This document shows positions 1 through 39,319 of a stretch of DNA of 64,000 nucleotides, piece after piece. Positions within the stretch are counted from its first letter, which is position 1. Each line of letters begins with the position of its first letter. Made by a program: the position numbers and the translations under genes. The notes beneath the pieces are model-generated. The model did not search any database, was not told the DNA's origin, and was given only the letters and a program-made list of their open reading frames with translations. Source of the DNA: Nocardia rhamnosiphila NBRC 108938 (GTDB taxonomy: Bacteria > Actinomycetota > Actinomycetes > Mycobacteriales > Mycobacteriaceae). The stretch spans positions 1-64,000 of the forward strand of contig NZ_JOAJ01000010.1 of NCBI RefSeq assembly GCF_000720425.1, in the 5' to 3' direction.

Positions 1-85
1 AGTCTCGAGGCCGAAACGGCGAGACCAAGGGGGCCTCAACCCCGCGGCGCCGCAGGCGCCGCCAAAAAACACAGCACCTTCGCGA
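1..85 (-). repeat. Dispersed structured repeat, copy A (cut by window edge)
   Basis: This is the same element as the copies near 1559, 13345, 17430 and 19435, here in reverse orientation and truncated by the start of the window. One inner arm (7-25) and one outer arm (31-42) are visible, followed by the GC-rich GGCGCC hairpin (45-62) and the run of A (64-69, T in the other orientation). The inner arm carries the CCGAAACGG variant, as in copy E. It lies downstream of the DUF445 gene. Confidence 0.85.
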
Positions 86-1558: not shown

Positions 1559-1712
1559 GCTGTGTTTATTTGCGGCGCCTCCGGCGCCGCGGGGTCGAGG
1601 CCCCCTTGATCCCGCCGTTCAGGCCTCGGGACTCGCGCCTTCGGCGCATGCACTTCGAGGCCTGAACGGCGGGACGGGCCTCGACCCTTTCAGGGCCTCG
1701 TAAGACTCGGCA
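1559..1712 (+). repeat. Dispersed structured repeat, copy B
   Basis: A leading GGCGCC hairpin is followed by an outer arm (1592-1603), an inner arm (1610-1627), a loop with its own small hairpin (GCGCC/GGCGC around 1635-1647), the inner right arm (1657-1674) and the outer right arm (1676-1687). The tail reads GGCCTCGTAAGACTCGGCAC. Relative to copies C and E the arms differ at several positions, always with a matching change on the other arm. It fills part of the 518-bp gap between the divergent DUF445 and TetR genes; the rest (1713-2065) is GC-rich and shows no gene I can support. Confidence 0.9.
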
Positions 1713-2065
1713 CGGGAGGAGGTCGGGCACCGCTGGGTCGATCGGATGGCCGGCGGATACGGAAGTGCGCTCGGCGGAGCGTGGACAGGGGCGGGGGCCG
1801 TCGGTTCCCGCGGAGATCCGGACTCAGGATGGCTGCGGCACGCGAGCGGTCGACGGGGGAGGTGTTCTGGTCGGCCTGGTTGCGCCGGCGGCACAGCGCC
1901 CACCGCGACGGTTCCGTCCGGCACGCGGCCGACCACACACGCCCGCCGGCCACGGGACGCGCGGGGAAGTGTGGGATCGGTTGCACAAGGACCAAACGAA
2001 CCACCTGGGCTGGGATGGGGCCTAGAGTGGAACGCACGTGAACCGTCCGGACCGAGGAGCCCACG

Positions 2066-2806
2066 CTGTCCACCGAAGACCTGCTCGATATCGGGACATC
2101 CGCCGATCGATCGGCGCCGGTGCGTACCCCGCGGACCGACGGGCGCAAGCGACGCTGGCGCCAGCACAAGATCGACCGCCGCGAGGAGCTCGTCGACGGC
2201 ACGCTGGCCGCGGTGCGCACCCGCGGCGGGAGTGCCGGCATGGACGAGATCGCCGCCGAGATCGGTGTGTCCAAGACCGTTCTCTATCGCTATTTCTCCG
2301 ATAAGAACGACCTGGTCAACGCCGCGATGCAGCGGTTCATCGAGATCACTCTGATGCCGCGCGTCTACGGCGCGATCAGCCTCGATGCCGACGAGTATCA
2401 GCTGGTGCGGTCGGCGCTGGCCGAATACGTGGGCGCGGTCGACGAGGATCCCGAGGTGTACCGGTTCATCATGGGCACCGGTTCGGGCGATCCGTCGTCG
2501 CTGGCCGATTTCGAGAGGCTGTTCGCGGAGGTCGTCGCGGCCGCCATCACCGAGCGCGGCAGTGCCCGCGGTATCGAGACCGAAGGGGTGATGCTGTGGT
2601 CCTATGTGCTGGTCGGCGGCATCCAGCTCGCGACCCACTGGTGGACCACCCATAAGACACTGCCCCGGGAAGAGGTCATCGACTACCTCACGATGATGGT
2701 GTGGAGTGCCATCGAGGGCATGGCGCGCGCCGGCGGTTCGCGGACCAAGTTCGCCGAACAGGAGCATGTGCTGCCCCCGGTCTCCCCCGACGACCAGGCC
2801 GTCTGA
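2066..2806 (+). CDS. TetR family transcriptional regulator
   Basis: The helix-turn-helix is clear: 'MDEIAAEIGVSKTVLYRYFSD' is the classical TetR recognition region, preceded by the usual helix 'RREELVDGTLAAVRTRGG'. The C-terminal ligand/dimer domain ends with a hydrophobic helix rich in Trp. The start is uncertain. A CTG at 2066 has a perfect GAGGAG six bases upstream (2054-2059) and adds 18 residues starting STEDLLDIG. The first GTG is at 2120 and has no such site. I chose the CTG because the added sequence keeps the same codon style as the gene. The effector and target genes are unknown; the UbiB-type kinase gene follows 127 bp downstream on the same strand. Confidence 0.85.
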   Translation: MSTEDLLDIGTSADRSAPVRTPRTDGRKRRWRQHKIDRREELVDGTLAAVRTRGGSAGMDEIAAEIGVSKTVLYRYFSDKNDLVNAAMQRFIEITLMPRVYGAISLDADEYQLVRSALAEYVGAVDEDPEVYRFIMGTGSGDPSSLADFERLFAEVVAAAITERGSARGIETEGVMLWSYVLVGGIQLATHWWTTHKTLPREEVIDYLTMMVWSAIEGMARAGGSRTKFAEQEHVLPPVSPDDQAV

Positions 2807-2933
2807 GTCGGCGGACTCGCCTGGCTCGACAACCCGGCCGGGTTGGCTAGTCTGATTGCCGTGCGGTGACGAGGAACCGGCTGTGTTCCTCTGTTGCCGT
2901 AGGCGCGGCGTCGGCACCAACGGAGGTTCCTCG

Positions 2934-4337
2934 ATGGCGAAACAAGTGCCGACATCCAGGCTGGCCCGCGGCACCAAGCTGGGTGCGGTGGCGGCCGGCT
3001 CGATGATGCGCAAACAACGCGCCCGGCTCTCGATGCGCGGCCGGTCCGAGGCGGTACGGGCCCGGATGGCCGAGGAGTCGATCCTGCGCAGTACCGAACA
3101 GCTGGTCATGGTGCTGGGCACCATGAAGGGCGTGGCCATGAAACTGGGCCAGATGATGTCGGTACTCGACCTGGACCTGGTGCCGCCGGAGCATCGGGAA
3201 CGGTTCCAGAAACGGCTCGCGGTACTGCGCAATGCCGCGCCCTCGGTGTCTTTCGAGGCCATGCGCGCGGTGATCGAAGAGGATTACGGGCAGCCGCTGG
3301 ACGCGGTATTCGCCGAATTCGAACCCGAGGCCATCGCGGCGGCCTCCATCGGGCAGGTCTATCTCGCCCGGTTGCACGACGGCCGCCAGGTCGCGGTGAA
3401 GGTGCAGTATCCGGGCATCGATGCGGCGGTCCGGGCGGATCTGAAGAACCTGAACATGTTCCGGCGGGTCCTGCAGTCGGCGATGCCGTGGGTCACCCCG
3501 GCGGTTCTCGACGAACTGCGGCTGAACATGGAAGCCGAACTCGACTATCACATCGAGGCCGAAACCCAGCGCGATATCGCGGAGCTCTACGCCGACCACC
3601 CGTTCGTCGTGGTCCCGCGGCCGGTCCTCGAGCACAGCACCAGACGGGTGCTGGTCACCGAGTATCTGGCCGGTACCGCGTTCGAGGACATCCGCCGGAT
3701 GCCCCCGCCCGACCGCGACCGGGTCGGCGAAATCATCTACCGCTTCTATGTGGGATCGCTGTTCAATTTCAACGAGTTCTGCGGCGACCCGCACCCGGGC
3801 AATGTGCTGCTCGCCGCGGACGGCCGGGTCGGATTCCTCGATTTCGGGCTGTTCAACCGGATGGATCCCGAACACGTCCGATTCGAGGCGATCTGTCTGT
3901 GTGCGGCCGCCGAGGACCGCGGCGCGGATCTGCGTGAGCTGATGATCCAGCGCGGGGTCATCGATTCGGCGGACGAGATCGGCGTCGAGGAATGCCTGGA
4001 GTATGTGCTCTCGGCCTCGGAATGGTGCCTGGTGGACCAGGAACTCACCATCACCCCGGAACTGGCCAGTGGCGCATTCCTGCTGGCAGTGGACCCGCGA
4101 TCCAGTGAGTTCTCCGGGATGAAACAACAGAATCTGCCGCCGGAGCATCTGTTCTCGCGGCGGGCCGATTTTCTGACCTTCGGCATGCTGGGTCAGCTCG
4201 AGGCGACCGCCAATTGGCATCGCATCGCCCGGGAATGGTTGTACGGCGAAGAGCCGGTCACCGAACTCGGGCGCCTCCACCGACAGTGGCTGGCCGGGCG
4301 CCGGCCGGCCAAACGCGGTAAGCGGCGTACGGGTTAG
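2934..4337 (+). CDS. ABC1/UbiB (AarF) family atypical kinase
   Basis: This 467-residue protein belongs to the UbiB/ADCK family of atypical protein-kinase-like ATPases. Visible motifs are KLGQ (the KxGQ helix, in AMKLGQMMS), the Ala-rich loop AAASIGQV that replaces the glycine loop, the ATP lysine in VAVKVQYPG, and the catalytic/metal motifs CGDPHPGNVLL and FLDFGLF. In quinone-making bacteria UbiB supports ubiquinone synthesis; actinobacteria make menaquinone and carry several paralogues whose role is unsettled. The ATG at 2934 has GGAGG eight bases upstream. The ATG-less extension to 2856 reads into Cys/Arg-rich sequence and is unlikely to be translated. Confidence 0.9.
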   Translation: MAKQVPTSRLARGTKLGAVAAGSMMRKQRARLSMRGRSEAVRARMAEESILRSTEQLVMVLGTMKGVAMKLGQMMSVLDLDLVPPEHRERFQKRLAVLRNAAPSVSFEAMRAVIEEDYGQPLDAVFAEFEPEAIAAASIGQVYLARLHDGRQVAVKVQYPGIDAAVRADLKNLNMFRRVLQSAMPWVTPAVLDELRLNMEAELDYHIEAETQRDIAELYADHPFVVVPRPVLEHSTRRVLVTEYLAGTAFEDIRRMPPPDRDRVGEIIYRFYVGSLFNFNEFCGDPHPGNVLLAADGRVGFLDFGLFNRMDPEHVRFEAICLCAAAEDRGADLRELMIQRGVIDSADEIGVEECLEYVLSASEWCLVDQELTITPELASGAFLLAVDPRSSEFSGMKQQNLPPEHLFSRRADFLTFGMLGQLEATANWHRIAREWLYGEEPVTELGRLHRQWLAGRRPAKRGKRRTG

Positions 4338-4373
4338 CGCCACGGCACCGGACATATCCAAGGGGTTCTATCC

Positions 4374-5615
4374 ATGACCGACACTCGCGAATTCGACCTG
4401 ATCATCTTCGGCGCCACCGGCTTCGTCGGTAAGCTCACCGCCGGGTACCTGCTGGGCGCGGCACCGGCCGGGGCGCGGATCGCGCTGGCCGGACGTTCGG
4501 CGGACAAACTCGCCGCGGTCCGCGACGAGATCGGAGCCGCCGACTGGGGCCTGGTGGTGGCCGATACCACCGATCAGGAGTCGATGGACGCCCTCGCCGC
4601 TCGCACGACCGCGGTCATCACCACGGTCGGCCCGTATCTGCGCTACGGGATGCCGATGGTCGCGGCCTGCGCGAAGGCCGGTACCCACTACGCGGACCTC
4701 ACCGGCGAACCGCTGTTCATCCGCGACGCCATCGACACCTACCACGACGAGGCCGCGCGCACGGGCGCCAAGATCGTGAACTCGTGCGGCTACGACTCGG
4801 TCCCCTCGGATCTGAGCGTCTATCAGCTCTACCGGCGGTCGGTCGCGGACAACACCGGCGAACTCGGCGACACCACCCTGGTCGCGACCCTGCGCGGCGG
4901 AGTCAGCGGCGGCACCATCGATTCCGGCCGGGCGATGATGGAGGCGGTCGCGGCGGACAGATCGAAGGGCGCGGTACTCGGCCACCCCTATTCGCTGAGT
5001 CCCGACAGGTCCATGGACCCCGAGGTGGGCCGCCAGTCCGACCTCACCCTGCAGCGGGGACGCGAGATCGACCCGAGTCTGGACGGCTGGGTCGGCACCT
5101 TCGTCATGGCCTCGCACAACACCAAGATCGTGCGCCGGAGCAACGGCCTGCTCGGCTGGGTGTACGGCAAGAACTTCCGCTACCGCGAGACCATGGGTGC
5201 CGGGAACTCGGCCCTGGCGCCGGTGATCGCGGCGGGTATCACCGGTGGTGTCGTCGCCGGGATGGCGGTCGGCGGTCTGCTATCCCGGTTCGGCGCCGGT
5301 CGCGCGGTGCTCGACCGGGTGCTGCCCGCGCCGGGCACCGGCCCGAGCGAGGCCACCCGGGAGAGCGGTTGGTTCCGCATGCGCACCTACACCCGTACCT
5401 CTTCGGGTGCCCGGTATCGCGCCGATTTCGCCGGTCTCGGTGACCCCGGGTACAAGGCGACCGCGGTCATGCTCGGCGAGAGCGGTCTCGCACTGGCCTT
5501 CGACGACAAGCCCGAGCTCGCCGGTGTGCTGACGCCCGCCGCGGCCATGGGCGACGCGCTGACCGCGCGGCTGCGCGCGGCCGGGATGACGATCGATGTC
5601 GAGCCGCTGGGATGA
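4374..5615 (+). CDS. Saccharopine dehydrogenase-like oxidoreductase (trans-acting enoyl reductase family)
   Basis: A 413-residue protein with an N-terminal Rossmann nucleotide site (FDLIIFGATGFVGKLTAGYLL, residues 5-25) and the saccharopine-dehydrogenase-like NAD(P)-binding domain. This group includes mycobacterial Rv2449c and Rv2953; the latter is the trans-acting enoyl reductase of phthiocerol/phenolglycolipid synthesis. Here no polyketide synthase is adjacent, so the lipid substrate is unknown. A hydrophobic Gly/Ala segment at about 283-302 may associate with membrane. The stop overlaps the start of the methyltransferase gene by 4 nt (ATGA), which points to translational coupling and a shared pathway. 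Confidence 0.85.
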   Translation: MTDTREFDLIIFGATGFVGKLTAGYLLGAAPAGARIALAGRSADKLAAVRDEIGAADWGLVVADTTDQESMDALAARTTAVITTVGPYLRYGMPMVAACAKAGTHYADLTGEPLFIRDAIDTYHDEAARTGAKIVNSCGYDSVPSDLSVYQLYRRSVADNTGELGDTTLVATLRGGVSGGTIDSGRAMMEAVAADRSKGAVLGHPYSLSPDRSMDPEVGRQSDLTLQRGREIDPSLDGWVGTFVMASHNTKIVRRSNGLLGWVYGKNFRYRETMGAGNSALAPVIAAGITGGVVAGMAVGGLLSRFGAGRAVLDRVLPAPGTGPSEATRESGWFRMRTYTRTSSGARYRADFAGLGDPGYKATAVMLGESGLALAFDDKPELAGVLTPAAAMGDALTARLRAAGMTIDVEPLG

Positions 5616-6292
5616 ACCTCGCTCGGCGCACCATGAACGCCCCGGCACTGGCGGCGGTCTACGAAAGGGTCTGGCGGCCCACGGTGTTCTATCTGGCCAC
5701 CGGCCGCACCACCGCCGCCGATCGCCGGTTCGCGGTGGAGTCGCTACACCTCGACAGATCGCGGCGGGTCCTGGATATCGCCTGCGGCCCCGGTAATTTC
5801 ACCCATTTCCTGAGCGAGCACGTACCGGCCGACGGGTACGTCACGGGGATCGACTATTCGCCGCCCATGCTGGCGCGTGCCCGCGCCGACAATGCCGGGC
5901 CGCGCGTCGGATATGTACGCGGCGATGCGCGCTATCTGCCCTTCGCCGACGAGACCTTCGACGCGGTCTGCTGTTTCGGCGCGCTGTACCTCATCCCCGA
6001 CCCACTGGTCGCGGCCCGGGAGATGATCCGCGTGCTGGCGCCCGGCGGCCGGATCGCCGTCACCACCAGCCATCGCCCGGACAACCCGGTCGGCGAATTG
6101 ACCCGGCTGACCGCGGGAGTGAGCGGACTGCGCATGTTCGGCGGCCGGACCTTCCCGGAGCTGTTCGCGACGGCCGGATTGGTCGATATCGACCAATCGG
6201 TACACCGCTTCTTCCAATACGTGACCGCCACCCGGCCGACCGCGAGCGCGGCGGGGCGCGCGGCCGGCCGGCCGGCGACGTCCGGCGTCTGA
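5612..6292 (+). CDS. Class I SAM-dependent methyltransferase
   Basis: A 226-residue protein with the class I methyltransferase signature: motif I VLDIACGPGNF (about residues 53-63), an acidic ribose-binding end of strand 2 (GIDYSPPML), motif II/III FDAVCCFGALYLIPDP, and the post-motif 'EMIRVLAPGGRIAVT'. The family methylates small molecules or lipids such as menaquinone precursors; nothing here fixes the substrate. It starts inside the stop codon of the oxidoreductase (ATGA), and an internal ATG seven codons later is an alternative start. The C-terminus is Ala/Arg-rich and probably disordered. Confidence 0.88.
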   Translation: MNLARRTMNAPALAAVYERVWRPTVFYLATGRTTAADRRFAVESLHLDRSRRVLDIACGPGNFTHFLSEHVPADGYVTGIDYSPPMLARARADNAGPRVGYVRGDARYLPFADETFDAVCCFGALYLIPDPLVAAREMIRVLAPGGRIAVTTSHRPDNPVGELTRLTAGVSGLRMFGGRTFPELFATAGLVDIDQSVHRFFQYVTATRPTASAAGRAAGRPATSGV

Positions 6293-6473
6293 CGGGTTCC
6301 GCGAGAGAAGTGCTCGACCCGTTGCCACCCCTCGATACACTGCTGCCCGCGGCCCGCCATGCGTGCGCCAATTCACAGCCGAATCCCCATGACCGGCGGG
6401 TTTTCCCCCGCGGGCGCGGCTACTCGTCGGTAGAGTCGGCTGGCGTACCCACGGGCCGGAAGGGGGATTCCAG

Positions 6474-6902
6474 ATGTCGGTACCGGAGGTGGGGCAGAGC
6501 GCGGCTCGGCAGCTCTACACCGCGGCCACGGCCGGAGGCGAGAATTCCTTCACCCTTGCCGAGGACGTCGCGCTGCGCCTGGCCCAGGCATGCGACACCC
6601 TGGTCGCAGATCTGGAAGCGGCACGGGACGGCGGCCACCGCATCGCCGAAACCCACGGCACCGCCGGTTTCCCCGATCTGCCCACCGGGCACGCCCTCGC
6701 CGCGGGGTTCCGCGGCAAGGCGGTGCAGTACCTGGAAACCCTCACCGCGCTCCAGGAGGCGGCGCTCCGCTTCAAAGCCGCCTATCTCGCCGCCGGCGGA
6801 CGGCTCGCCGAGGCCGATCTCGCCAACCGCGCCGCCCTCGCGGTGGTGGCGGCGCATCCCGGCCTCGGCCCCGACCACCACGACGAGGACAGCCATGGCT
6901 GA
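6474..6902 (+). CDS. ESX-like small helical protein (cassette gene 1)
   Basis: A 142-residue, Ala-rich, almost entirely helical protein I cannot assign to a named family. It has no signal peptide, membrane segment or Cys. Its helical composition and position suggest a WXG100/PE-like partner: the next gene carries a W-x-G motif and the third gene is an EspG-type chaperone. It has a purine-rich ribosome site (AAGGGGG) upstream of the ATG and overlaps the next gene by 8 nt. No YxxxD/E secretion signal is visible near the C-terminus, so secretion by a type VII system is only an inference from context. Confidence 0.6.
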   Translation: MSVPEVGQSAARQLYTAATAGGENSFTLAEDVALRLAQACDTLVADLEAARDGGHRIAETHGTAGFPDLPTGHALAAGFRGKAVQYLETLTALQEAALRFKAAYLAAGGRLAEADLANRAALAVVAAHPGLGPDHHDEDSHG

Positions 6903-7470
6903 ACCCGCCGGCACCGATCCGCCCTACGCGCCCGAACGCGAATGTTTCCGCAGTTTCACCCATCAGGAGATCTGGGACCGGGTGCACGAGGTCCTCGATC
7001 CCGGTGCGCTCGCCGCCGCGGCGGCGGCGTGGCAGTCGAACGCGGACGCCGTGGCGGATGCCTTCGCCGTGTTCACCGACAACACCCGGCGCGAATTCGA
7101 GCGCTGGTCGGGGTATTCGGCGAACGCGGCCCGGCAGGCGACACGGGAGTTCATCGCCGGCGGTGACGAAACCCATGAGGCGTGCCGTGCGCTCCAGCGC
7201 CTGATGGAGGGCAATACCGAAGCGGCACAGACATTGCGGTCCGCGCTGGCCCCACCGCAACCCTATCGGCCGCTCGACGATCCGGCGGCCGAGGCCGTAC
7301 ACGGTGGCCGCCGCCGGATGGACCACGATATCGCCGCCGCCGCGGCCGCCGCCGATGCGCAGGACGCGATGAACAGCATCTACAACCCCACTCTCCCGGC
7401 TTCCGGCGACCGGGTGCCCCGGTTCCCCGGCACGTCCACCGGTACCGGCGGCGGGAGCCCGCGCCGGTGA
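6895..7470 (+). CDS. WXG/PPE-like protein (cassette gene 2)
   Basis: This 191-residue protein has a helix-turn-helix hairpin with W-S-G in the turn (FERWSGYSANAARQ), as in WXG100 and PPE substrates of type VII secretion. It is flanked by Ala-rich amphipathic helices and a Pro/Gly-rich, probably disordered tail. The ATG at 6895 overlaps the stop of gene 1, and its own stop overlaps the GTG of the EspG gene. The three genes are therefore tightly coupled. The likely role is an ESX substrate or an intracellular pair protein; a PPE-type N-terminus is not convincingly present. Confidence 0.65.
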   Translation: MAEPAGTDPPYAPERECFRSFTHQEIWDRVHEVLDPGALAAAAAAWQSNADAVADAFAVFTDNTRREFERWSGYSANAARQATREFIAGGDETHEACRALQRLMEGNTEAAQTLRSALAPPQPYRPLDDPAAEAVHGGRRRMDHDIAAAAAAADAQDAMNSIYNPTLPASGDRVPRFPGTSTGTGGGSPRR

Positions 7471-8207
7471 AGTGGATCCTGACCCCGGACGAGTTCAGTT
7501 ACGTCTGGGCCAATGAGACAAGCCTGGACCGCCGGCCCTACCCGGTGAATCTGGCCCCGGCCAGCGCCGTGCGCACCGAATCCGAACTGGATGCGCTGCG
7601 ATTACCACAGCGGTTCGCCAGACAGGCCGACCCGGATCTGGCAGCCGCGCTCATGCTCTGCGCCCGCCCGGACGCCACCGCAGTCACGATTTCCGGAGAG
7701 CGCCCGGCGCTCCCCCGCAACGGCGACCAGCCGCATACCGAGCAGATCCTCGGCTTCGCCGCCGTTATCGATCATCACGCCGCCGTCCTGCACGCCACGC
7801 CCACGAAGGTCACCGTTCACATGTGCCATGCCCGGGACCTCGGAGGCCGGCTGGTCCAGCTGATCGGTTCCGCCCGCCCCGGTGCCCACGGCCCGTTCCA
7901 CCAGCCCCAGGACGCGGTACTCACCGACGCCCCCCTGTCCACCTGCGACGGAGACGGAGACGCCGCCCGCTTTCGTGCGGCGCTGCGCGAACCCGTCGAC
8001 GCCCGCGGCTTCATCACCGTCACGGTGGCGCCGGACGAGCCCATGTCACCACCCACGCTGCACCGCAGCTGGCTCGATATCCGTGACGACGGCCGCTATC
8101 TGCTCACCACCGCCGATGTCCTGACTCTCGCACCGGTCAGCGACGCCGAATTCGCCGACAATCTGCAGAGCCTGGCCCGCATCCGCGGCAGCACTCCCGG
8201 ACTGTGA
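7467..8207 (+). CDS. ESX secretion-associated protein, EspG family
   Basis: A 246-residue protein that opens with the family's hallmark 'WxLTPDEFxYxW' (here KWILTPDEFSYVWANE), matching EspG proteins. EspG proteins are cytosolic chaperones that bind the tip of PE-PPE or related heterodimers and keep them soluble for the EccC ATPase. The GTG start overlaps the previous stop (GTGA), which makes a three-gene unit. No ecc/myc secretion genes lie in this window, so the cassette must use a machine encoded elsewhere or act alone. The middle (about 100-180) contains conserved-looking beta strands typical of the family. Confidence 0.8.
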   Translation: MKWILTPDEFSYVWANETSLDRRPYPVNLAPASAVRTESELDALRLPQRFARQADPDLAAALMLCARPDATAVTISGERPALPRNGDQPHTEQILGFAAVIDHHAAVLHATPTKVTVHMCHARDLGGRLVQLIGSARPGAHGPFHQPQDAVLTDAPLSTCDGDGDAARFRAALREPVDARGFITVTVAPDEPMSPPTLHRSWLDIRDDGRYLLTTADVLTLAPVSDAEFADNLQSLARIRGSTPGL

Positions 8208-8219
8208 TAGGTCTGTCCG

Positions 8220-9065
8220 ATGTCCGAGCTATGGAAAGCCCCCGCGAGCCGGGCCCTGCGCGCCGACGGCCTGCGTATCACCGATATCGATACCTCTGCC
8301 CGGCCCGGGTTCCGCGGCCGCAAGAAGGACGGGGACACGCTGCTGCCCGAACGCGGCAAGGTACTGGCCGGTTTGCAGGAGAAGCTCTACGCCAACGGCC
8401 GCTCCGGTGACAATCGCAGCGTGCTGTTGGTCCTGCAGGGTATGGACACCGCCGGCAAGGGTGGAATCGTGCGCCATGTCATCGGCTCGGTGGACCCGCA
8501 GGGCGTCGATCACGCCGCGTTCGGCGTGCCGACCGAGGAGGAGAAGCGGCATCACTTCCTGTGGCGGATCCGCAAAGCCCTGCCGCGCGGCGGGCAACTC
8601 GGGGTGTTCGATCGTTCACATTACGAAGATGTCCTGGTCGCCCGGGTCCACGAGCTCGTGCCCGAAGCGGTCTGGCAGCAGCGCTACACCGAGATCAACG
8701 ATTTCGAGCAGGAGCTGACCGAAGCGGGAACGACACTGGTGAAGGTCGCGATGTTCGTTTCGCTCGACGAACAGAAGAAAAGGCTGCGGGAGCGGCTGGA
8801 ACGGCCGGACAAGTATTGGAAGTTCAGCCCCGGCGATATCGACGAACGCGCCTATTGGCCCGCCTACCAGCAGGCTTATCAGGATGTGCTGGACCGCACC
8901 TCCACCGATTACGCACCCTGGTATGTGCTGCCCGCCGACGCGAAGTGGTTCTCCCGCCTGGCCGTCACCGAACTACTGATCGAGGCGTTCGAGAAACTGG
9001 ACCTGAGCTGGCCGCCGGCGAATTTCGACCCGGCTGCCGAACTGCGCCGGCTCGACACAGCCTGA
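8220..9065 (+). CDS. Polyphosphate kinase 2 (PPK2) family protein
   Basis: A 281-residue PPK2 enzyme, which transfers phosphate between polyphosphate and nucleoside mono- or diphosphates. The Walker A loop is GMDTAGKGG (residues 74-82), Walker B/catalytic is GVFDRSHYEDVLVARVH (about 134-150), and the lid-side RLERPDKYWKFSPGDIDER motif follows. The usual paired arginines are present. The family splits into class I (NDP), II (NMP) and III (both); sequence alone does not settle which applies, though the length fits a one-domain enzyme. It lies 12 nt after the EspG gene, but a functional link is not obvious. Confidence 0.9.
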   Translation: MSELWKAPASRALRADGLRITDIDTSARPGFRGRKKDGDTLLPERGKVLAGLQEKLYANGRSGDNRSVLLVLQGMDTAGKGGIVRHVIGSVDPQGVDHAAFGVPTEEEKRHHFLWRIRKALPRGGQLGVFDRSHYEDVLVARVHELVPEAVWQQRYTEINDFEQELTEAGTTLVKVAMFVSLDEQKKRLRERLERPDKYWKFSPGDIDERAYWPAYQQAYQDVLDRTSTDYAPWYVLPADAKWFSRLAVTELLIEAFEKLDLSWPPANFDPAAELRRLDTA

Positions 9066-9204
9066 CCGGCGCGAACCGGTGAGTTATGGAAACTCTCAGC
9101 AAGCCGGACAATGATGGGCGGTGCGCCGGGCAGCCCGGCGCCCCCCGGCGAACCTCCGAGTGGCCGGGGCAGGCGAGGCGAGGGAAAGGCGTGGTGAACG
9201 CACG

Positions 9205-10514: not shown

Positions 10515-10533
10515 CCGGCGTCGCCGGCCCGCC

Positions 10534-11658: not shown

Positions 11659-12206
11659 GGAGCCTCCCGCTGCCGCAGCCGATCACGACCATTGTCGCCC
11701 GGATCAACACGCGACAGTCGAGTTTCTTCCCCTTACCGCAAGTTATCCACAGGCATCCCTAGTTATCCACAGGCCGGCGCGGGCCTGGGGAAACACCGGC
11801 CGGATACCTGTTGATTCGTTACCACCGGCCCGATGCGGTCACATCCGTGTCACGTCCCCCGCGGCGGCCCTTTACACCGTCCGCGCGAAAACCGCCCTGG
11901 ATGTCGGCGTCTGCCCGCGCGAACCGGCCGACCGGTGCGATCGCAAATACGGCCCGCTCGTTATCCGGCGGAAACCGAATCAATAGAATTCCGTATCCCC
12001 GGCCCGGCCACCAGGAAATCCATCCACAGCCGCTCGGCCTTCATCCACACTGCGGAGCGCGGTTTTCCACAGCCTTCTCCACAGTGTGGATAATCGACGG
12101 GTACGAGCCGGAATCCCTTTGTTCGACGGTGACCGATTATTCGACGACGACCGATCGAATCGACTTCGCGGACCGGGAGTCCGCCGGATGATGCCGGCGG
12201 AAACAC
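11659..12206. promoter_or_regulatory. Non-coding block with a cluster of DnaA boxes
   Basis: This 548-bp gap between two genes holds perfect DnaA boxes (TTATCCACA) at 11743-11751 and 11763-11771 and a perfect inverse copy at 12085-12093. One-mismatch copies lie at 12041-12049 (TCATCCACA), 12063-12071 (TTTTCCACA) and 12075-12083 (TTCTCCACA), and a two-mismatch copy at 12020-12028. The first two are exactly 20 bp apart within a 13-base direct repeat. The middle is more AT-rich than its surroundings (around 11970-11995 and 12110-12160). No replication gene is adjacent. It may be a DnaA titration or regulatory site. No gene is seen here. Confidence 0.8.
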
Positions 12207-13262
12207 TCAGATGGTCGCGGTATCGATGACGAACCGATACCGCACATCACTGGCCACCACTCGCTCGTACGCGCTGTCGATCTCGTCCGCGGAAATCAAC
12301 TCGATTTCCGCCCCGATTCCGTGCTCGGCGCAGAAATTCAACATCTCCTGTGTTTGCTCGATACCGCCGATCATCGAACCCGAGAGCGAACGCCGGCGAC
12401 CGGCCAGCACCCGGGCCTGAACCTGGAGCGGGGCCTCCGGCAACCCCAGCACGACCAGTGTCCCATCCAGTCGCAGCAGCTTCATGTAGTCGTTGATGGG
12501 CAGGTCCGCGGATACGGTGTTGATGACGAGATCGAAGCTGCTGCGCAACTCCCGGAACACCTGGGCATCGCTGGTGGCGTAGTAGTGGTGCGCGCCGAAT
12601 CGCTTTCCGTCGTCCTGTTTGCTCAGCGAATGGCTGAGCACCGTCACCTCGGCGCCCAGCGCGGCGGCGATTTTCACACCGATATGGCCGAGCCCGCCCA
12701 TTCCGATGATCGCGACCTTTTTCCCGGGTCCCGCACCCCATTGTCGTAAAGGCGAATACAGGGTGATTCCGGCGCACAACAGCGGCGCGGCCACCGACAG
12801 ATCGATTCCCTCCGGGATGGCGACCACGAAGTTCTCGGTCACCACGATCCGGGTGGCGTATCCGCCCATGGTGTGCCCACCCGGCTGCACCTCCTCCGGC
12901 ACCCGGGAGTTGTAGGTCATCACCGCGCCGCGGGTACAGAACTGCTCCTCGCCCGCCAGACACGGCTCGCACACTCCGCAGGAATCCACCATGCAGCCGA
13001 CACCCACCCGGTCGCCCACCCGGTGGCGGCTCACCGCCGAGCCCACAGCAGCGACAGTCCCCGCGATCTCGTGCCCGGGCACACACGGATAGGCCGCGCC
13101 ACCCCACTCGTTACGGGCGGTGTGGATATCGGAATGGCAGATCCCGGCATACGCGATATCGATCAGGACATCATGGGGTCCGAGCTCCCGGCGCTCGATG
13201 GTGACCTTCTCGAACTCGGCGTCGGGACCGGCCATCGCGTACGCGGCTACAGCAGTACTCAT
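12207..13262 (-). CDS. Zinc-dependent NAD(P) alcohol dehydrogenase, AdhC/cinnamyl-alcohol-type
   Basis: A 351-residue medium-chain dehydrogenase. Catalytic zinc ligands are visible in GICHSD, PGHEIAG and LLCAGITLY. The structural zinc site is the four-Cys stretch [15 protein letters not shown]. The cofactor fold is [11 protein letters not shown]. It closely resembles mycobacterial AdhC (NADPH-dependent, acting on aliphatic and aromatic aldehydes). I start at the ATG at 13262 ([10 protein letters not shown]), which matches the family; 12 further in-frame residues upstream are possible. The DnaA-box block lies immediately downstream. A structured repeat sits upstream, between it and the MetE-like gene. 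Confidence 0.92.
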
Positions 13263-13344
13263 GCGTCCATGCCTACCGGCGCATACCGGATTTGCCAAGG
13301 TGGTGTGACTTTCGGCGCCGACCGCGAAGGTAGGGTCTGGGCCT

Positions 13345-13513
13345 GCTGTGTTTTTTGGCGCCGCCTGCGGCGGCGCGGGGTTGAGGCCCCCTTGGTCTCG
13401 CCGTTCAGGCCTCGAGACTCGCGCCTGCGGCGCATGCGCTTCGAGGCCTGAACGGCGAGACGGGCCTCAACCCTTGGAGGTGTCTCGTAAAACTCGACGC
13501 ATGAGGTTGCGTC
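13345..13513 (+). repeat. Dispersed structured repeat, copy C
   Basis: Full copy: leading GCTGTG plus T-run and a GGCGCC-type hairpin, then outer arms 13378-13389 / 13462-13473 and inner arms 13395-13413 / 13443-13461 (GTCTCGCCGTTCAGGCCTC against its exact complement). The loop contains GCGCC/GGCGC. The tail GTGTCTCGTAAAACTCGACG is shared with copy E. It occupies much of the 410-bp gap between the 3' end of the MetE-like gene and the 5' end of the alcohol dehydrogenase; the remaining 150 bp (13514-13672) show no supported gene. Confidence 0.92.
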
Positions 13514-13672
13514 GGCATTCGATGATCGCTTCCGCAGGTGGAGTTCGGGTGCCGACGCGGCAGAAGTAGGCCACCCGTTGTCCACCCGCTGCTGGTTGTC
13601 TTGGAGACCGTGCGGATAGACACGAGGAGGCGCACGCGGCCCCGTTCCCGGGAGTTGCGCAGCGTTCTGCGC

Positions 13673-16000
13673 TCATTCCGGGGCGGGATCGCGGTCCTGC
13701 TCGGTTTCCAGGCGGCGGCGGACGCGGCGGGCGGCGGCGACCATATTGCGGAGGGCGGGGTCGAGCTGCCAGTGGTGGCGGGTCTTGAGGCCGCCGTCCG
13801 GGTTGGCCCAGAGCCGGTCCGGGCCGACCGCCGCGGCAGCCGCGGTGAGCAGCTCGTCCAGTTCGTCGATATCCGGGATGCGGGCCGAACGGCTCTCGTA
13901 CACGCCCGGGCCGACCCCGTGACTGAGACCGTGGCCGGAGGCGTAGTCCTCCTCCAGCGCTTTCAACACCCACTCGATGGACCGGGTGGCGACGATCGCG
14001 GTGACGTCGGCGTCGAGCTGTTCGATGGCCTGGACGATCTCGGTGCGGCCCGAGTAGGGGATATGGGTGTGGATCTGGGTACTGGGCGCCACACCGGAGG
14101 TCGCGAGCCGGAATGCCCCGATCGCCCAGCGCAGGTATTCGGCGCGGCCTTCGGGCCGGGCCGGCCACAGCTCCCGCAGCGCCGGTTCGTCGACCTGGAT
14201 GATGCCGATACCCGCGCGTTCCAGGTCCACGACTTCGTCGCGGATCGCCAGCGCCACCTGGTCGGCCGTCTCGTAGAGCGGCTGGTCCTGCCGGACGAAC
14301 GAACGCGCCACCATGGTGACGGGGCCGGTGACCATGCCCTTCACCGGTTTGTCGGTCAGCGATTGGGCATAGGTGATCCACTCCACCGACATCGGCGCCG
14401 GCCGCGACACGTCGCCGTAGATGATCGGCGGACGCACACAGCGCGATCCGTACACCTGCACCCAACCGAAATGCGTGGTGGCGAAACCGTCCAGTAATTC
14501 GGCGAAATACTGGATCATGTCGTTGCGCTCGTGCTCGCCGTGCACCAGCACGTCGAGACCGATATCTTCCTGCAATGCGATGGTGGCGGCGATCTCCGCC
14601 TCGATCTTCTTGCGGTATTCGTCGTAGGACAACCGGCCCTCGCCCAGCTGGTGGCGGGCCTGCCGGGCTTCGACACTCTGCGGATACGACCCCAGCGTGG
14701 TGGCGGGCACCGGCGGCAGCTGCAATTTCTCCTGCTGCGCGGCCCGGCGCTCGGCATAGGGTGCGCGTTCCCGCATCTGCGGGGTGATCGCGTAGACCCG
14801 CTGGCGCACCGCGTGTTTCTGCTTGAAATGCACTTCACCGGGGCGTTTACGCCATTTGTCCGAGGGACCTTCGGTAAGCGCTTTGGCCAGTGAGACGACC
14901 TCGCCGACCTTTTGTTTCGCGAAAGCGAGCCGATCGGCCACATTTCCGTCGATATCGTATTCGGCGAGTACGTCGTAGGGAACATGCAGCAGTGTGGTCC
15001 CGGTGGAGACCACCAGATCCGGGCAGACCTTGGTGAGTTCGTTCAGGTATTCCAGGGTGACGTAGCGGTCGGCCCGCCACACATTCGTGCCGCTGATAAC
15101 GCCCGCGTAGAGCCGTTTGCGCCGGATACCCGGGATCTGCGCCAGGTCTTCGGGCCGGATCCGGTAGGACGCCAGATCGAGGCCGATCGCCTCCACCCCG
15201 GTACCGGCGAGAATGCGCAGCGCTTCCCCGAAATCGCCGTACTGTCCGGTGACCAGGATGCGCGGCCGCAGCGGCGCTTTGGACAGCCGGTCGTAGACGC
15301 GTTCGAAGGCGGCGAGTTCGGCGGCCGAGCGTTCGGCGGTGAAACAGGGTTCGTCCAGCTGTACACAGGTGGCACCGCGCCGTGCCAGGATCTCGAACAG
15401 CTGCTCGTAGACCGGGAGCAGCCGATCCAGCAGATCGATGGTGTCGAACCCGGCCGATTCACCGGGCACACTGCCCGCCTTCGACAGCAGCAGCAGCGAC
15501 ACCGGCCCCAGCACCACCGGCCGCTGCTCGATGCCCACCGCCATCGCCCGGTCCCATTCGTCCAGCAGCGCCTCGGCGTGCAGGGAGAATTCCGTATCGG
15601 CATCGAGTTCCGGCTGCCGGTAGTGGTAGTTGGTACCGAAGAAACGCACCAGTTCCAGCGGCGGTAGATCGGGCCGGCCGCGCGCCATCAGGAAATAGAA
15701 ATCCAGCGGGTCCAGATCGGCGCGGTATTCGGCGAAACGGGATGGGTACGCGCCGAAGAGCAGTGCGTTGTCGAGGACATGGTCATAGAAGGAAAAGGTG
15801 TTCCCGGGGACCTGGGTGAGCCCGGTGGCGGCGAGCTCGTTGAACTGCTGCTCCTGAATATCGCGTCCTACCGCGCGCAGCTCTTCCCGGGTGATCGCCT
15901 GCCGCCAGTACGCCTCGAGCGCGCGCTTGAGCTCCCGGTGCGTACCGATCCGCGGATACCCGAGCACACTCGAGCCGAACCCTTCACCGACGTTGACCAT
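13673..16000 (-). CDS. MetE-like protein lacking most zinc ligands
   Basis: A full-length (775 aa) homologue of cobalamin-independent methionine synthase, with both halves of the family: SVLGYPRIGTHRELKRALE and RFFGTNYHY in the N-terminal domain, and LGSYPQSVEARQAR, GEHERNDM, GSRCVRPP and IIQVDEPALRE in the catalytic domain. In E. coli MetE, zinc is held by His641, Cys643, Glu665 and Cys726. Here the same places read His646, Pro648 (HTHIPY), Val670 (TAIVATRS) and Gly736 (NPDGGLKT). The proton-donor His (E. coli 707) is Arg704, and NWSF of the family is ARSF. The reading frame is intact. It may no longer methylate homocysteine through zinc. ATG 16000 has GGAGG upstream. Confidence 0.9.
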   Translation of the reverse strand: MVNVGEGFGSSVLGYPRIGTHRELKRALEAYWRQAITREELRAVGRDIQEQQFNELAATGLTQVPGNTFSFYDHVLDNALLFGAYPSRFAEYRADLDPLDFYFLMARGRPDLPPLELVRFFGTNYHYRQPELDADTEFSLHAEALLDEWDRAMAVGIEQRPVVLGPVSLLLLSKAGSVPGESAGFDTIDLLDRLLPVYEQLFEILARRGATCVQLDEPCFTAERSAAELAAFERVYDRLSKAPLRPRILVTGQYGDFGEALRILAGTGVEAIGLDLASYRIRPEDLAQIPGIRRKRLYAGVISGTNVWRADRYVTLEYLNELTKVCPDLVVSTGTTLLHVPYDVLAEYDIDGNVADRLAFAKQKVGEVVSLAKALTEGPSDKWRKRPGEVHFKQKHAVRQRVYAITPQMRERAPYAERRAAQQEKLQLPPVPATTLGSYPQSVEARQARHQLGEGRLSYDEYRKKIEAEIAATIALQEDIGLDVLVHGEHERNDMIQYFAELLDGFATTHFGWVQVYGSRCVRPPIIYGDVSRPAPMSVEWITYAQSLTDKPVKGMVTGPVTMVARSFVRQDQPLYETADQVALAIRDEVVDLERAGIGIIQVDEPALRELWPARPEGRAEYLRWAIGAFRLATSGVAPSTQIHTHIPYSGRTEIVQAIEQLDADVTAIVATRSIEWVLKALEEDYASGHGLSHGVGPGVYESRSARIPDIDELDELLTAAAAAVGPDRLWANPDGGLKTRHHWQLDPALRNMVAAARRVRRRLETEQDRDPAPE

Positions 16001-16023
16001 TGCCGACCTCCGTGTCTGTTTGC

Positions 16024-16043
16024 CCCGCCTTCGGCAGGGCGGG
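16024..16043. terminator. Short GC hairpin between fadB2 and the MetE-like gene
   Basis: CCCGCC and GGCGGG pair across an 8-base loop, in the 103-bp gap between the FadB2 stop and the MetE-like start. No long T tract follows. It could be a weak terminator or attenuator. I see no cobalamin or SAM riboswitch in this gap. Confidence 0.4.
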
Positions 16044-16103
16044 TCGGGGCCCTGTTAACCCCGGTTCTTCACTCCGCCGCTCATCTCGGTGACCACCGAC
16101 TAC

Positions 16104-16973
16104 CTACGCCTTGTTGTACTGGTAGAAGCCCGTACCGGACTTCTTGCCCAGCAGCCCCGCCTCGACCATGCGCATGAGCAGCGGCGGCGCCGAGTACAGC
16201 GGCTCCTTGAATTCGCCGTACATCGAGTCGGCGATCGATTTCACCGTATCCAGGCCGACCAGGTCGGTGAGTGCGAGCGGGCCCATGGGGTGGGCACAAC
16301 CGAGCACCATCGCCTTGTCGACATCCTCCTTGGTGGCGAAACCGGATTCCACCATCCGGATGGCCGAGAGCAGGTACGGGACCAGCAGCGCATTGACCAC
16401 GAAGCCGGAGCGGTCCGAGGAACGCACGATCTCCTTGCCGAGGACCTCGGCCGCGAATTTCTCGGCCCGCTCGGTGACGGCGCCACTGGTCTTGAGCGTG
16501 GTCACCAGTTCGACCAAGGGCAGCACCGGCACCGGGTTGAAGAAGTGCATACCGACGACCCGTTCGGGGTTGTTGGTGGCCACCGCGATCTTCATGATCG
16601 GAATGGAGGAGGTGTTGGAGGCCAGAACCGCGCTGGGATCGGTGACCACCTTGTCGAGTTCGGCGAAGATGGAGGTTTTGACCTTCTCGTCCTCCAGGAC
16701 GGCCTCCACCACGAGCTGCCGGTCGGCGAAATCGCCGAGGTCGGAGGTGAAGCGCAGCCGCCAGGCCGCCTGTTCCCGCTCGCGCTCGGTGATTTTGCCG
16801 CTGCTCACACCCCGGTCCAGGGACCGCAGAATCCGCGACCGACCGGCCGCGGCGAGGTCCCGGGTCTGTTCGTACACGAGCACATCGACATGCGCGCGAG
16901 CACACACTTCCGCGATACCCGCGCCCATCTGGCCGGCACCGATGACACCGACACGCTGAATCTTCTCGTTCAC
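16104..16973 (-). CDS. fadB2: 3-hydroxybutyryl-CoA dehydrogenase
   Basis: A 289-residue 3-hydroxyacyl-CoA dehydrogenase that interconverts acetoacetyl-CoA and 3-hydroxybutyryl-CoA with NAD(P)H. The Rossmann motif is GVIGAGQMGAGIAEVCA (residues 9-25). The catalytic Ser-His-Glu-Asn set is seen in SNTSSIPI, GMHFFNPVPVLPLVELV and GFVVNALL. The C-terminal dimer domain ends GKKSGTGFYQYNKA. It matches mycobacterial FadB2, which is also the neighbour of isocitrate lyase in M. tuberculosis. Here the two genes are in the same orientation but are separated by a 630-bp gap with repeats, so separate transcription is likely. Confidence 0.93.
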   Translation of the reverse strand: MNEKIQRVGVIGAGQMGAGIAEVCARAHVDVLVYEQTRDLAAAGRSRILRSLDRGVSSGKITEREREQAAWRLRFTSDLGDFADRQLVVEAVLEDEKVKTSIFAELDKVVTDPSAVLASNTSSIPIMKIAVATNNPERVVGMHFFNPVPVLPLVELVTTLKTSGAVTERAEKFAAEVLGKEIVRSSDRSGFVVNALLVPYLLSAIRMVESGFATKEDVDKAMVLGCAHPMGPLALTDLVGLDTVKSIADSMYGEFKEPLYSAPPLLMRMVEAGLLGKKSGTGFYQYNKA

Positions 16974-17429
16974 GTCCCACTCCTGTGTTCGTGGCGCCGC
17001 TTCGGCGGCGCGGGGCTGTGTTCATCGGCGCCGCATCCGGCAGCGCGGGCTCGGAGCCCTCGGGACCCCGTCGACAATGCCGACCGCCCGGCAAGAGGGT
17101 GAGCGCCGACGGCGGTCGGGTTCGGCGCTTCCGGCTCGCCGGAGAGACCGAAGCCCCCTCGCCGGGCTGTTGCGAGGGGGCGGTACACCCCTACCGAGGT
17201 AGTGGGTCCGGGATACCCGTCGGAAGACGGAGTACCACGATCGGTCCCGGAGGACTCGGCCCCGTGGGCCCGAGTCCGGCCCGGAGCAGAAACCCCGAGC
17301 CGGGGCCGTACTTCCGGCACCTTGTCGCGGACGGCCGACAGACCCGTTCCCCGCGCCGGTTCCGATAACAACCGGAACCCGGACCGCAGAACACCGATCC
17401 TCACCGCAACCACCACCTGGTGCCGAGTC
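16974..17429. other. Non-coding gap with hairpins upstream of fadB2
   Basis: This stretch holds two short copies of the GGCGCC-type hairpin that begins the dispersed repeat (about 16985-17010 and 17020-17045), without the nested arms. A perfect 10-bp stem follows (GCCCCCTCGC 17153-17162 with GCGAGGGGGC 17172-17181, 9-base loop), which could end transcripts. I see no supported gene; short reading frames here are Arg/Pro/Gly-rich and disagree with neighbouring codon use. Confidence 0.6.
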
Positions 17430-17601
17430 TTACGAGGCCTATAAAGGGTTGAGGCCCGTCTCGCCCCTTGGCCGAAGGTGCTCAATGGTCCCTCTATGGA
17501 CGGCCCACCGCACATCGCATGAGCCGAAGGCTCGAGTCCCGAAGCCGAAACAGCGAGACCAAGGGGGCCTCAACCCCGCGGCGCCGAAGGCGCCGCAGAC
17601 A
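17430..17601 (-). repeat. Dispersed structured repeat, copy D (decayed inner stem)
   Basis: Reverse-oriented copy just after the isocitrate lyase stop. The outer arms are intact (17446-17457 and 17565-17576), and the small loop hairpin GAGCC/GGCTC is present (17521-17533). The inner arm is kept on one side (17541-17559, with two changes) but on the other side only 8 bases survive (17458-17465) before unrelated sequence. The tail is of the copy B type. Confidence 0.85.
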
Positions 17602-17603
17602 AC

Positions 17604-18893
17604 TCAGTGAAACTGTCCTTCTTCGGTGGAGCCCTTCAGCGCCGCCGTCGAGGTGTTGGGGTCGACGGTGGTGGCGATGGTGTCGAAGTAACCGGCACCG
17701 ACCTCACGCTGGTGCTTGATGGCGGTGAAGCCACGCTCGGCGGCGGCCTTGAACTCGCGCTCCTGCAGGTCGACGAAGGCGGTCATACCCTCGCGGGCGT
17801 AGCCGTAGGCCAGGTCGAACATGCCGTAGTTGAGCGAGTGGAAGCCGGCCAGGGTGATGAACTGGAACTTGAAGCCCATGGCGCCGAGTTCACGCTGGAA
17901 CTTCGCGATGGTGGCGTCGTCCAGGTGGGCCTTCCAGTTGAAGGACGGCGAGCAGTTGTAGGCCAGCAGCTGGTCCGGGAATTCGCTGCGGACGGATTCG
18001 GCGAACTTGCGCGCGACCTCGAGGTCCGGCACACCGGTCTCCATCCAGATGAGGTCGGCGTAGGGGGCGTAGGCCTTGGCGCGCGCGATGCAGGGCTCGA
18101 TGCCGTTCTTCACTCCGAAGAAGCCTTCGGCAGTGCGGGTGCCGTCGAGGAACTCACGGTCGCGCTCGTCCACATCGGAGGTGATGAGGGTGGCGGCTTC
18201 GGCGTCGGTGCGGGCGATGATCACCGAGGGCACCTCGGCGACGTCGGCGGCCAGGCGCGCGGAGGTCAGGGTGCGGATGTGCTGCTGGGTGGGGATGAGC
18301 ACCTTGCCACCGAGGTGGCCACATTTCTTCTCCGAGGCCAGCTGGTCTTCCCAGTGCACACCGGCGGCGCCGGCGGCGATCATGGCCTTCTGCAGTTCGT
18401 AGGCGTTGAGCGCGCCACCGAAGCCGGCTTCGGCGTCGGCGACGATCGGGGCCAGCCAGTTCTCGACGGCGGTATCGCCTTCGACCTTGGCGATCTCGTC
18501 GGCGCGCAGCAACGCGTTGTTGATGCGGCGGACCACGGCGGGCACCGAGTTGGCCGGGTAGAGGCTCTGGTCGGGGTAGGTGTGACCGGAGAGGTTCGCG
18601 TCACCGGCGACCTGCCAGCCCGACAGGTAGATGGCCTTGAGCCCGGCGCGGACCTGCTGCACCGCCATATTGCCGGTGAGGGCGCCCAGCGAGTTGATGT
18701 AGTCCTCGTTGTTCACCAGATCCCAGAGGATCTCCGAGCCACGCCGCGCGAGGGTGTGCTCTTCGACAACGGTGCCCTGCAGCTTGGAAACCTGCTCGGC
18801 GGTGTAGTTGCGGGTGACGCCCTTCCAGCGCGGGTTGGTGTCCCAATCCTTCTGGATTTCCTCGGCGGTCTTCGGGGTGCCGGTGGTCGACAT
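17604..18893 (-). CDS. aceA: Isocitrate lyase
   Basis: A 429-residue isocitrate lyase that splits isocitrate into glyoxylate and succinate, the first step of the glyoxylate shunt used on acetate and fatty acids. The signature [11 protein letters not shown] with the catalytic Cys is present, as are the metal/substrate residues in [22 protein letters not shown] and [11 protein letters not shown]. The length equals mycobacterial Icl1 (428 aa). The ATG at 18893 has GGAG about 8 bases upstream; the in-frame upstream extension does not resemble the family. RamB, its usual regulator, is encoded 3 kb away. Confidence 0.96.
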
Positions 18894-19434
18894 CTTGCGA
18901 CTCCACTTCCTTGGTCGGTCGGTCCGCCGTGTCCGCGTCGACGAAGCGTTTCCGCGTCGCACTGCTGGAACGACGATTTGCAGGCTTGCAATGCCCGGTG
19001 GGTGTACTTCCACACCATGGCACACCATCAAAATGCCGTCTACCTGTTGCTTCTGTGAATCTGAGCTAGGATCGGCCACGACTTTGCTAAGCCTGTGAAA
19101 GTTGCCAGCGCGTAACCACCGTCAAGTCTACTCACCAGTAGCTCTGACATGGGGTTTTAGCGTAACGCTTGTACTGTTAGCGGGGGCGGGGATCGGGGGC
19201 AAACCCACTCGTCACGTTTCGACCCTGTGAGGACGTTCATAACTGACGGCGTTTGCCTTCAGATGTGACGTGTGTCTGTGTCGGGCTTCCTGGCGCAAGC
19301 GATAGGCAGGCTTCCCGGCGAAAGCGCCAGGGGGCTCGCTCGCACAGGCGTGAGGTGAGTGGGCCCGCCCCGAAAGGCAGAGACGCTGGGCTCGCCGGCA
19401 AAGGCGACAGGCGAGCTCGCTCGTGAAGGTGCTG
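18894..19434. promoter_or_regulatory. Upstream region of aceA with a RamB-like site
   Basis: The non-coding region upstream of isocitrate lyase holds ACTTTGCTAA at 19081-19090, one base from the reverse core of the corynebacterial RamB site (TTTGCAAAGT). A similar TTAGCAA core lies upstream of ramB itself. TGTGAGGACGTTCATA at 19226-19241 loosely resembles a CRP/GlxR site. The part from 19260 to 19430 is GC-rich, with short near-repeats such as GGCTTCC(T/C)GGCG and GGC(G/A)AGC. No gene is supported here. Confidence 0.4.
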
Positions 19435-19600
19435 TGTTTTTGGCGCCGCCTGCGGCGTCGCGGGGTTGAGGCCCCCTTGGTCTCGCCGTTTCGGCCTCGG
19501 GACTCGAGCCTTCGGCTCCTGCGCTTTCGAGGCCGAAACGGCGAGACGGGCCTCAACCCTTCGAGGTGTCTCGTAAAACTCGACGCATGCGGGTTGCGTA
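19435..19600 (+). repeat. Dispersed structured repeat, copy E
   Basis: Full copy with T-run and GGCGCC-type hairpin, outer arms 19463-19474 / 19548-19559 and inner arms 19480-19498 / 19529-19547 (GTCTCGCCGTTTCGGCCTC with its exact complement). Its loop hairpin is GAGCC/GGCTC, where copies B and C have GCGCC/GGCGC. The tail matches copy C. It lies between the divergent aceA and XdhC genes; the remaining 19601-19803 holds the XdhC promoter side and no other gene. Confidence 0.92.
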
Positions 19601-39303: not shown

Positions 39304-39319
39304 GTGACAGGAGCGTCTC

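Follow-up and report, generated by a model that had tools for sequence, protein, structure and literature searches.

What kind of repeat keeps two nested stems paired while the letters of both arms change? This question is raised by the first 64,000 nucleotides of contig NZ_JOAJ01000010.1 of Nocardia rhamnosiphila NBRC 108938 (hereafter the window), in which five copies, A to E, of a repeat of about 150 bp are dispersed. The first-pass annotation of this DNA had explained them either by a non-autonomous mobile or repetitive extragenic palindrome (REP)-like element or by a structured RNA. Our analysis favors the former. The repeat is probably a Nocardia family of palindromic mobile DNA that resembles REPs and REPINs (REP doublets forming hairpins), and this is the best reading of its copy number, its inverted doublets, and its shifting position and orientation. 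A structured RNA is disfavored because the mismatches in the stems are about strand-symmetric outside three positions.

Each copy is a half-unit of two nested stems and an extra hairpin. It begins with a 5' module, in which CTGTG and a run of T are followed by a GC hairpin with a three-base loop. The outer stem is of the GGGTTGAGGCCC type in the clade of N. rhamnosiphila and of the GTGTTCGCGGCCC type in many other Nocardia, and it is followed by an unpaired stretch that is present on the 5' side alone. The inner stem has 21 pairs and is topped by a tip with a small hairpin; the tail reads CTCGTAAGACTCG or a near variant in most copies. The internal-loop and tail sequences are conserved across the genus. 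Some copies have a longer tip segment, whose orientation is reversed between copies (for example, between copy D and a copy in the relative G112). The parts described at first pass, namely a hairpin after a T-run, an outer stem of 12 pairs, an inner stem (here about 21 pairs) and a tip hairpin, are all present. Folded as single-stranded DNA, copy C reaches −62.8 kcal/mol (z = −10.4), which was equalled by 0 of 200 shuffles.

The half-units fall into two subfamilies. Subfamily A carries TCTCGCC, usually TTTCGG, and a GAGGTGTCTCG tail, and subfamily B carries TCCCGCC, TTCAGG, and a AGGGCCTCG tail; the exchanges TCTCGCC/TCCCGCC and GGGTTG/GGGTCG distinguish the two. Four arm exchanges had been taken as four independent events. 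All of them are readable in the sequence, but their independence was overstated from three copies, because two of the exchanges separate the subfamilies and copy C is mosaic, combining arms of type A with the B-type TTCAGG stretch.

A covariance model, R1, was built from 20 copies, with copies A and D outside the training set. The N. rhamnosiphila genome (G000, whose contigs carry C-numbers) gave 79 blast matches and 109 R1 matches at E ≤ 0.001, raw counts that contain opposite-strand self-matches. Sorting the R1 matches by hand and removing these self-matches left about 70 places, four weaker ones of which coincide with a second repeat, family II, described below. The covariance-model scan has thus found further copies in the genome. 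In a genus survey with strict filters and at most 20 matches scored per genome, R1 matched 126 of 148 sampled Nocardia genomes, including N. rhamnosiphila. In an order-wide sample of 121 genomes, 0 of the 118 non-Nocardia genomes matched, and all three that did were Nocardia. Plain blast found matches in 23 of 35 other Nocardia genomes and in 0 of 24 genomes of other genera. Carriers among the matches listed are Nocardia grenadensis, sienata, fusca, testacea, and jinanensis and one Nocardia metagenome bin, a list whose search pattern favors the N. rhamnosiphila clade.

Neighboring copies are arranged in a particular way. Among 204 primary matches, 29 of the 30 neighboring pairs within 700 bp are tail to tail and one is tandem, with some pairs counted twice. 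The distinct tail-to-tail pairs with a spacer below 300 bp number 26, comprising 13 A-B, 11 B-A, one A-A, and one unclear pair, and the spacer is 106–115 bp in 18 of them. All eight close pairs in the N. rhamnosiphila genome are tail to tail. Four complete relatives contain nine such pairs, together with one pair on the minus strand (158 bp between the copies) and one on the plus strand (1203 bp). Both outer ends of the dimer bear the CTGTG module, inverted relative to each other as terminal inverted repeats. The complete unit in the N. rhamnosiphila clade is therefore a tail-to-tail A-B heterodimer, mostly of 400–450 bp, and solo copies are its halves. The pair data come mostly from this clade, and most matches from remoter species are single. 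Much of the allele difference between dispersed copies is that between the two halves, A and B, of a single heterodimer that is inserted in either orientation. On contig C9, two A-B dimers stop within a stem and abut the next gene past its usual start (L235:7569-7570 and L235:14799-14800), and relatives retain the outer end and the start region; these truncations may be real deletions or assembly errors at a palindrome.

The position of the copies relative to genes was examined in 300 aligned matches (the best 150 of 199 plus the best 150 of 165), which were trimmed to 190 primary matches of at least 126 bases, 180 non-identical copies, and 156 with both neighbors. The counts still contain orthologues and sister copies and are therefore not independent events. 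Genes were called with a purpose-made caller, so that starts are approximate, and were named by eye. The copies are intergenic in 179 of 180 cases. The 5' end faces a stop codon in 80 of 156 copies and a start codon in 76, in agreement with the mixed gene contexts noted at first pass. It lies −13 to +15 nt from the stop in 44 of 156 copies (mean 9.0 and maximum 19 in 5000 draws of random placement in the same gaps) and at the same distance from the start in 20 of 156 (mean 6.3, maximum 17). The 3' end of the match is equally near a stop in 0 copies and a start in 1, to which the incomplete coverage of the tail by the model contributes. The stop codon is often contained in the first bases of the element.

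A placement just behind genes is known from other hairpins. In E. coli, 260 of 496 REPs in an earlier study and 446 of 4072 in a newer count lie within 15 nt of a stop codon (PMC12306157), and REPs with a GTAG tag supply stop codons (PMC3733652). Intrinsic terminators with clustered hairpins are likewise grouped shortly after the stop codon (PMC8355165); however, the Nocardia hairpins belong to a repeat scattered over the genome, of which half the copies do not follow a gene in the sense direction. The window copies lack the classical layout of an intrinsic terminator, as the T-run precedes the hairpin and, on the other strand, an A-run follows it. Integron attC sites, which the post-stop placement suggested, were set aside after their core motifs were not seen by eye; no integrase search was made.

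The copies shift between species. The relatives compared, up to seven for five intergenic regions within the window and a subset for three regions elsewhere, include N. sienata (G030), N. grenadensis (G169), N. testacea (G154), N. jinanensis (G121), and probably N. fusca (G113). The copies after the stop of an isocitrate-lyase-like gene and before the start of a DUF445-like gene are old and common to several species. At the DUF445-like start, G113, G121, and G074 retain the 5' module at a similar distance, but the stems that follow, reading CCCCGGTTCT...AGAACCGGGG, are those of family II, a second nested-hairpin repeat with the same 5' module and another inner sequence (also at L207:1405-1545). 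The N. rhamnosiphila genome has nine family II matches that span 100 or more of the 141 query bases. The same exchange to family II is found after the stop of another gene in G121. Behind the isocitrate-lyase-like gene, the element is absent in G030, G074, and G112, and other hairpins are visible by eye in G074 and G112. A region designated T1 has a forward copy in N. rhamnosiphila, a reverse copy in G154, a forward copy elsewhere in G113, and none in G030, G169, G121, and G112; the G113 copy occupies the spot of a simple hairpin in N. rhamnosiphila and in the last four relatives. Position, orientation, and inner stem thus all vary between species.

A private signature in the tip is present in 23 of 28 N. 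testacea copies and in 0 of 65 copies from other sources. The signature is also found at the old shared sites; therefore, the copies of one genome evolve in concert, for which gene conversion would be the simplest reason.

The paired arm changes were evaluated in 41 copies, most genomes contributing one, which were aligned without structure. Of the stem cells, 96.1% pair, compared with 29–40% when the partner is slid by 1–3 columns. Changes on both sides occur in 27 of 45 pairs, a value reached by 0 of 500 shuffles, and 254 cells are changed on both sides, against a shuffled mean of 70.6. Several inner-stem pairs occur as three or four Watson-Crick types. Paired arm changes thus stand far above the shuffles in the statistical test that the first-pass annotation had suggested.

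Covariation of this strength would ordinarily point to a structured RNA, such as an element of a 3' untranslated region, a small RNA, or a regulatory RNA, with the fold under selection in the transcript and the multiplication secondary. The genus-wide conservation of the internal loop and tail and the excess of copies in the sense direction after stop codons (44 of 156) agree with this. The mismatches do not. In the inner stem of the 41 copies, one-sided mismatches comprise 6 G-T and 19 A-C (p = 0.015, ancestry uncorrected), and 14 of the 19 A-C fall at three adjacent pairs. Two larger model-fitted sets give raw one-sided totals of 127 G-T to 43 A-C and 133 to 33; once the fixed G-T pair that tops the inner stem, its neighbor, and the outermost pair are set aside, these become 25 to 38 and 34 to 31. 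When 173 well-formed copies are paired symmetrically, the count is 140 G-T and 186 A-C (p = 0.013), or 86 and 72 as distinct contexts. All sets together, the mismatches are about strand-symmetric, and in the variable stems of the transcribed strand no preference for wobble over A-C was found outside the three pairs set aside. This would be unexpected for transcripts that pass through wobble pairs, and it fits a DNA palindrome with one arm copied onto the other. Of the first-pass conclusion that the double changes mean a fold kept as RNA or as DNA, the maintenance of the fold is upheld; its maintenance as RNA is not, as G-T is no commoner than A-C outside these three pairs. In addition, the window contains no Rfam family at gathering threshold, the 5' end points toward a start in about half of the copies, and unrelated sequence replaces inner stems at the same place. 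We therefore regard a structured RNA as unlikely.

A DNA-level route to such changes is known. Template switching between the arms of a palindrome can yield multi-base compensatory changes (PMC8794818), and it homogenizes arms and inverts spacers (PMC8604942). The Nocardia repeat resembles this quasipalindrome correction in its multi-base paired changes and its perfect arms. As for inversions, the tip segment is reversed between copies, but the three-base loops are not. On the plus strand, the small loop reads T-N-C in 119 of 180 5' hairpins and in 137 of 180 tips, the remainder having other loops or none that was found. The middle base of the loop is variable, and its neighbors and the closing C-G pair are mostly constant. 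UNCG tetraloops were considered from the sequence reading and rejected, as they would account for CCTNCGG but leave the GCTNCGC loops unexplained, whereas both are compatible with a G-N-A loop on the opposite strand. G-N-A loops form an extraordinarily stable DNA minihairpin (PMC4686876).

Several observations count against a mobile palindrome and have to be set beside the evidence for it. On the plus strand, G-N-A occurs in no 5' hairpin and in one tip (T-N-C 256, G-N-A 1). Because free inversion by template switching would mix both loop types, template switching cannot be the whole story; the three-base loops, which are not inverted, would rather indicate that selection acts strand-specifically on a DNA hairpin or on a minus-strand RNA. 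The fixed G-T pair, which contributes 71 G-T cells to one model-fitted set and 88 to the other, could be read as an RNA feature. A role as a 3' hairpin cannot apply to the 76 of 156 copies whose 5' end faces a start. No clean empty site with a target duplication was seen at the junctions read, where several differences are deletions. Finally, no mobilizing enzyme was found in a search limited to the Y1 family (PF01797), which includes the REP-associated tyrosine transposases (RAYTs). This family has no match in 6 of 14 carrier genomes, copy-rich ones among them, and a RAYT or IS200 partner was therefore rejected, since Y1 presence does not track the repeat; however, its occurrence in 8 of 14 carriers, several times as fragments, versus 2 of 10 genomes without a detected copy is a weak trend the other way.

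N. rhamnosiphila itself has a single PF01797 locus (contig C1, around 847266; L059), which by eye is a decayed IS200/IS605-type element with a TnpB-like frame and is not near any listed copy of the repeat. An autonomous form between converging copies was also sought. The 1.2-kb interval C5:677074-678459 holds by eye, without a family search, a release-factor-methyltransferase-like gene, and this candidate was discarded.

Despite these points, palindromic mobile DNA remains the probable interpretation, and the likeness to known systems is considerable. REPs, the bacterial interspersed mosaic elements (BIMEs) built from them, and REPINs share with the Nocardia repeat the many extragenic palindromes per genome, the inverted doublet as the unit, and heterodimers in many families (PMC2817692, PMC3116915, PMC3733652), as well as ends that supply stop codons (PMC3733652); the many copies within 15 nt of a stop are shared with the E. 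coli REPs (PMC12306157). In contrast, REPs are 20–40 bp long, whereas the Nocardia half-unit is about 150 bp long, with two nested stems and a hairpin. REPs and REPINs are also tagged by GTAG and linked to RAYT transposases (PMC2817692, PMC3116915, PMC3733652), and the Nocardia repeat has neither; in the alignments, inspected by eye, the large stem has neither a GTAG nor a CGTC tag at its foot. The repeat thus works like REPINs, yet we do not file it as REP/RAYT, because no Y1/RAYT tracks it. Closer in one respect are the CGTC-tagged REPs, which are palindromic dimers without a dedicated transposase; however, they are short single stems, mostly in head-to-head dimers and mostly from alpha-Proteobacteria (PMC3733652). 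A term search of PMC3733652 and PMC2817692 found no mention of Actinobacteria or Nocardia. The open-licence literature on palindromic, intergenic, or REP repeats of Nocardia yielded no published description, which is weak evidence of novelty.

Miniature inverted-repeat transposable elements (MITEs) are small, non-autonomous, and intergenic and have inverted ends, and the Nocardia repeat is like them in all these respects. It could accordingly be a purely selfish MITE, spread by an ordinary transposase and without a role in the host, in which case the placement at stop codons would be a target preference. The same CTGTG module, inverted, at both ends of the dimer and the differing place and orientation of copies between species are compatible with such an origin. 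However, internal nested palindromes of constant geometry distinguish the repeat from MITEs, no target duplication was found at the junctions read, and a related transposase was not found, the Y1 family, to which the search was confined, being absent from 6 of 14 carriers. Plasmid and phage collections gave no match at E 1e-5, in a search from which near records were possibly left out. The concerted evolution of one species' copies at old sites also speaks against a MITE, which we consider improbable.

The distribution along the chromosome was examined in four complete genomes among the matches listed, with genome lengths rounded and weak copies missing. The half-chromosome around dnaA holds 31 of 38, 41 of 45, 32 of 37, and 14 of 21 of these matches (p = 1e-4, 9e-9, 7e-6, and 0.19, respectively), and the largest copy-free gap is roughly opposite dnaA. 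The crowding is seen on the whole chromosomes of G074, G112, and G076. Codirectional with replication are 14 of 38, 23 of 45, 21 of 37, and 8 of 21 copies; this absence of an orientation preference speaks against a role tied to the direction of replication. A chromosome-organizing site, bound by a nucleoid or segregation protein and kept near the replication origin, would account for the crowding and the gap, but it is highly improbable, given the lack of a direction preference, the 22 of 148 Nocardia genomes without a detected copy, and the absence of weak copies from the counts.

If the repeat is palindromic mobile DNA, its life cycle may be pictured as follows. The unit would be copied or moved in trans at the DNA level, perhaps via a hairpin of the minus strand, on which the two small loops read G-N-A. 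Perfect arms would be kept by template switching or hairpin repair, besides selection. A copy that arrives after a stop codon would be tolerated or kept as the 3' hairpin of the gene, as a terminator or mRNA end. A more specific proposal, which we put forward tentatively, is a RAYT-independent class of REPIN-like elements. Taken jointly, it would comprise an A-B heterodimer of nested palindromes, minus-strand G-N-A minihairpins recognized as single strands by a Nocardia enzyme, inner cassettes exchanged at fixed anchors, and copies that evolve in concert in each genome. Were it true, unrelated hairpin families would serve the same start or stop codon in sister species.

Palindromic mobile DNA of this kind would add Nocardia to the range of REP-like elements, with a form that is dimeric, unusually large, and lacking a known transposase. 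It would also be a clear natural case of RNA-like covariation that probably arises at the DNA level, a point of importance when RNAs are sought by covariance in GC-rich genomes. Because sister species carry different hairpins at one and the same stop or start codon, a function of gene-end hairpins becomes testable.

In the window, the sequence and the repeat pairs, and for copies B to E also R1, place all five copies where the first-pass annotation had put them or within a few bases. Copy A (1..75, minus strand) is the outer part of a half-unit, with the 5' module, the outer stem, and part of the inner stem, and is cut by the start of the contig. It is too short to be listed by R1, but its arms, as inverted repeats with copies B, C, and E, are 88–96% complementary. 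Copy B (1560..1711, plus strand; R1 match 1557-1708, 170.3 bits) is a solo half-unit of subfamily B; 12 bp separate its 5' end from position 1547, the called start of gene 195-1547 (minus strand). Copy C (13346..13518, plus strand, right limit by eye; R1 match 13343-13495, 184.2 bits) is a solo half-unit between the minus-strand genes 12207-13235 and 13673-16000. Copy D (17425..17601, minus strand; R1 match 17425-17610, 92.5 bits) is a half-unit with the longer, inverted tip segment, and its 5' module comes directly after the stop of the isocitrate-lyase-like gene 17604-18893 (minus strand); its site was compared in seven relatives. Copy E (19432..19599, plus strand; R1 match 19429-19581, 177.3 bits) is a solo copy of a subfamily A half-unit and has short repeats of the GTGAAGG type as a tail on its left side; its site was compared in six relatives. 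A fragment of family II (16012..16083, plus strand; 82% match over query positions 5-74) sits between the minus-strand genes 13673-16000 and 16104-16973, and relatives have longer versions of it.

The contig starts within copy A, and in draft genomes several copies are found at the ends of contigs, a position to be expected when a repeat breaks assemblies. Short degenerate repeats of the CACCTTCACGAGCAAGCCCAC type are clustered at 77-199 and at about 19300-19431 of the window. Such clusters adjoin copies A and E at their outer end, as they do many A-type copies at other loci. Farther along the window, two direct repeats of 58 bp (39299-39356 and 40012-40069), 76% alike, are 713 bp apart, and a weaker pair lies at 39429 and 39849.

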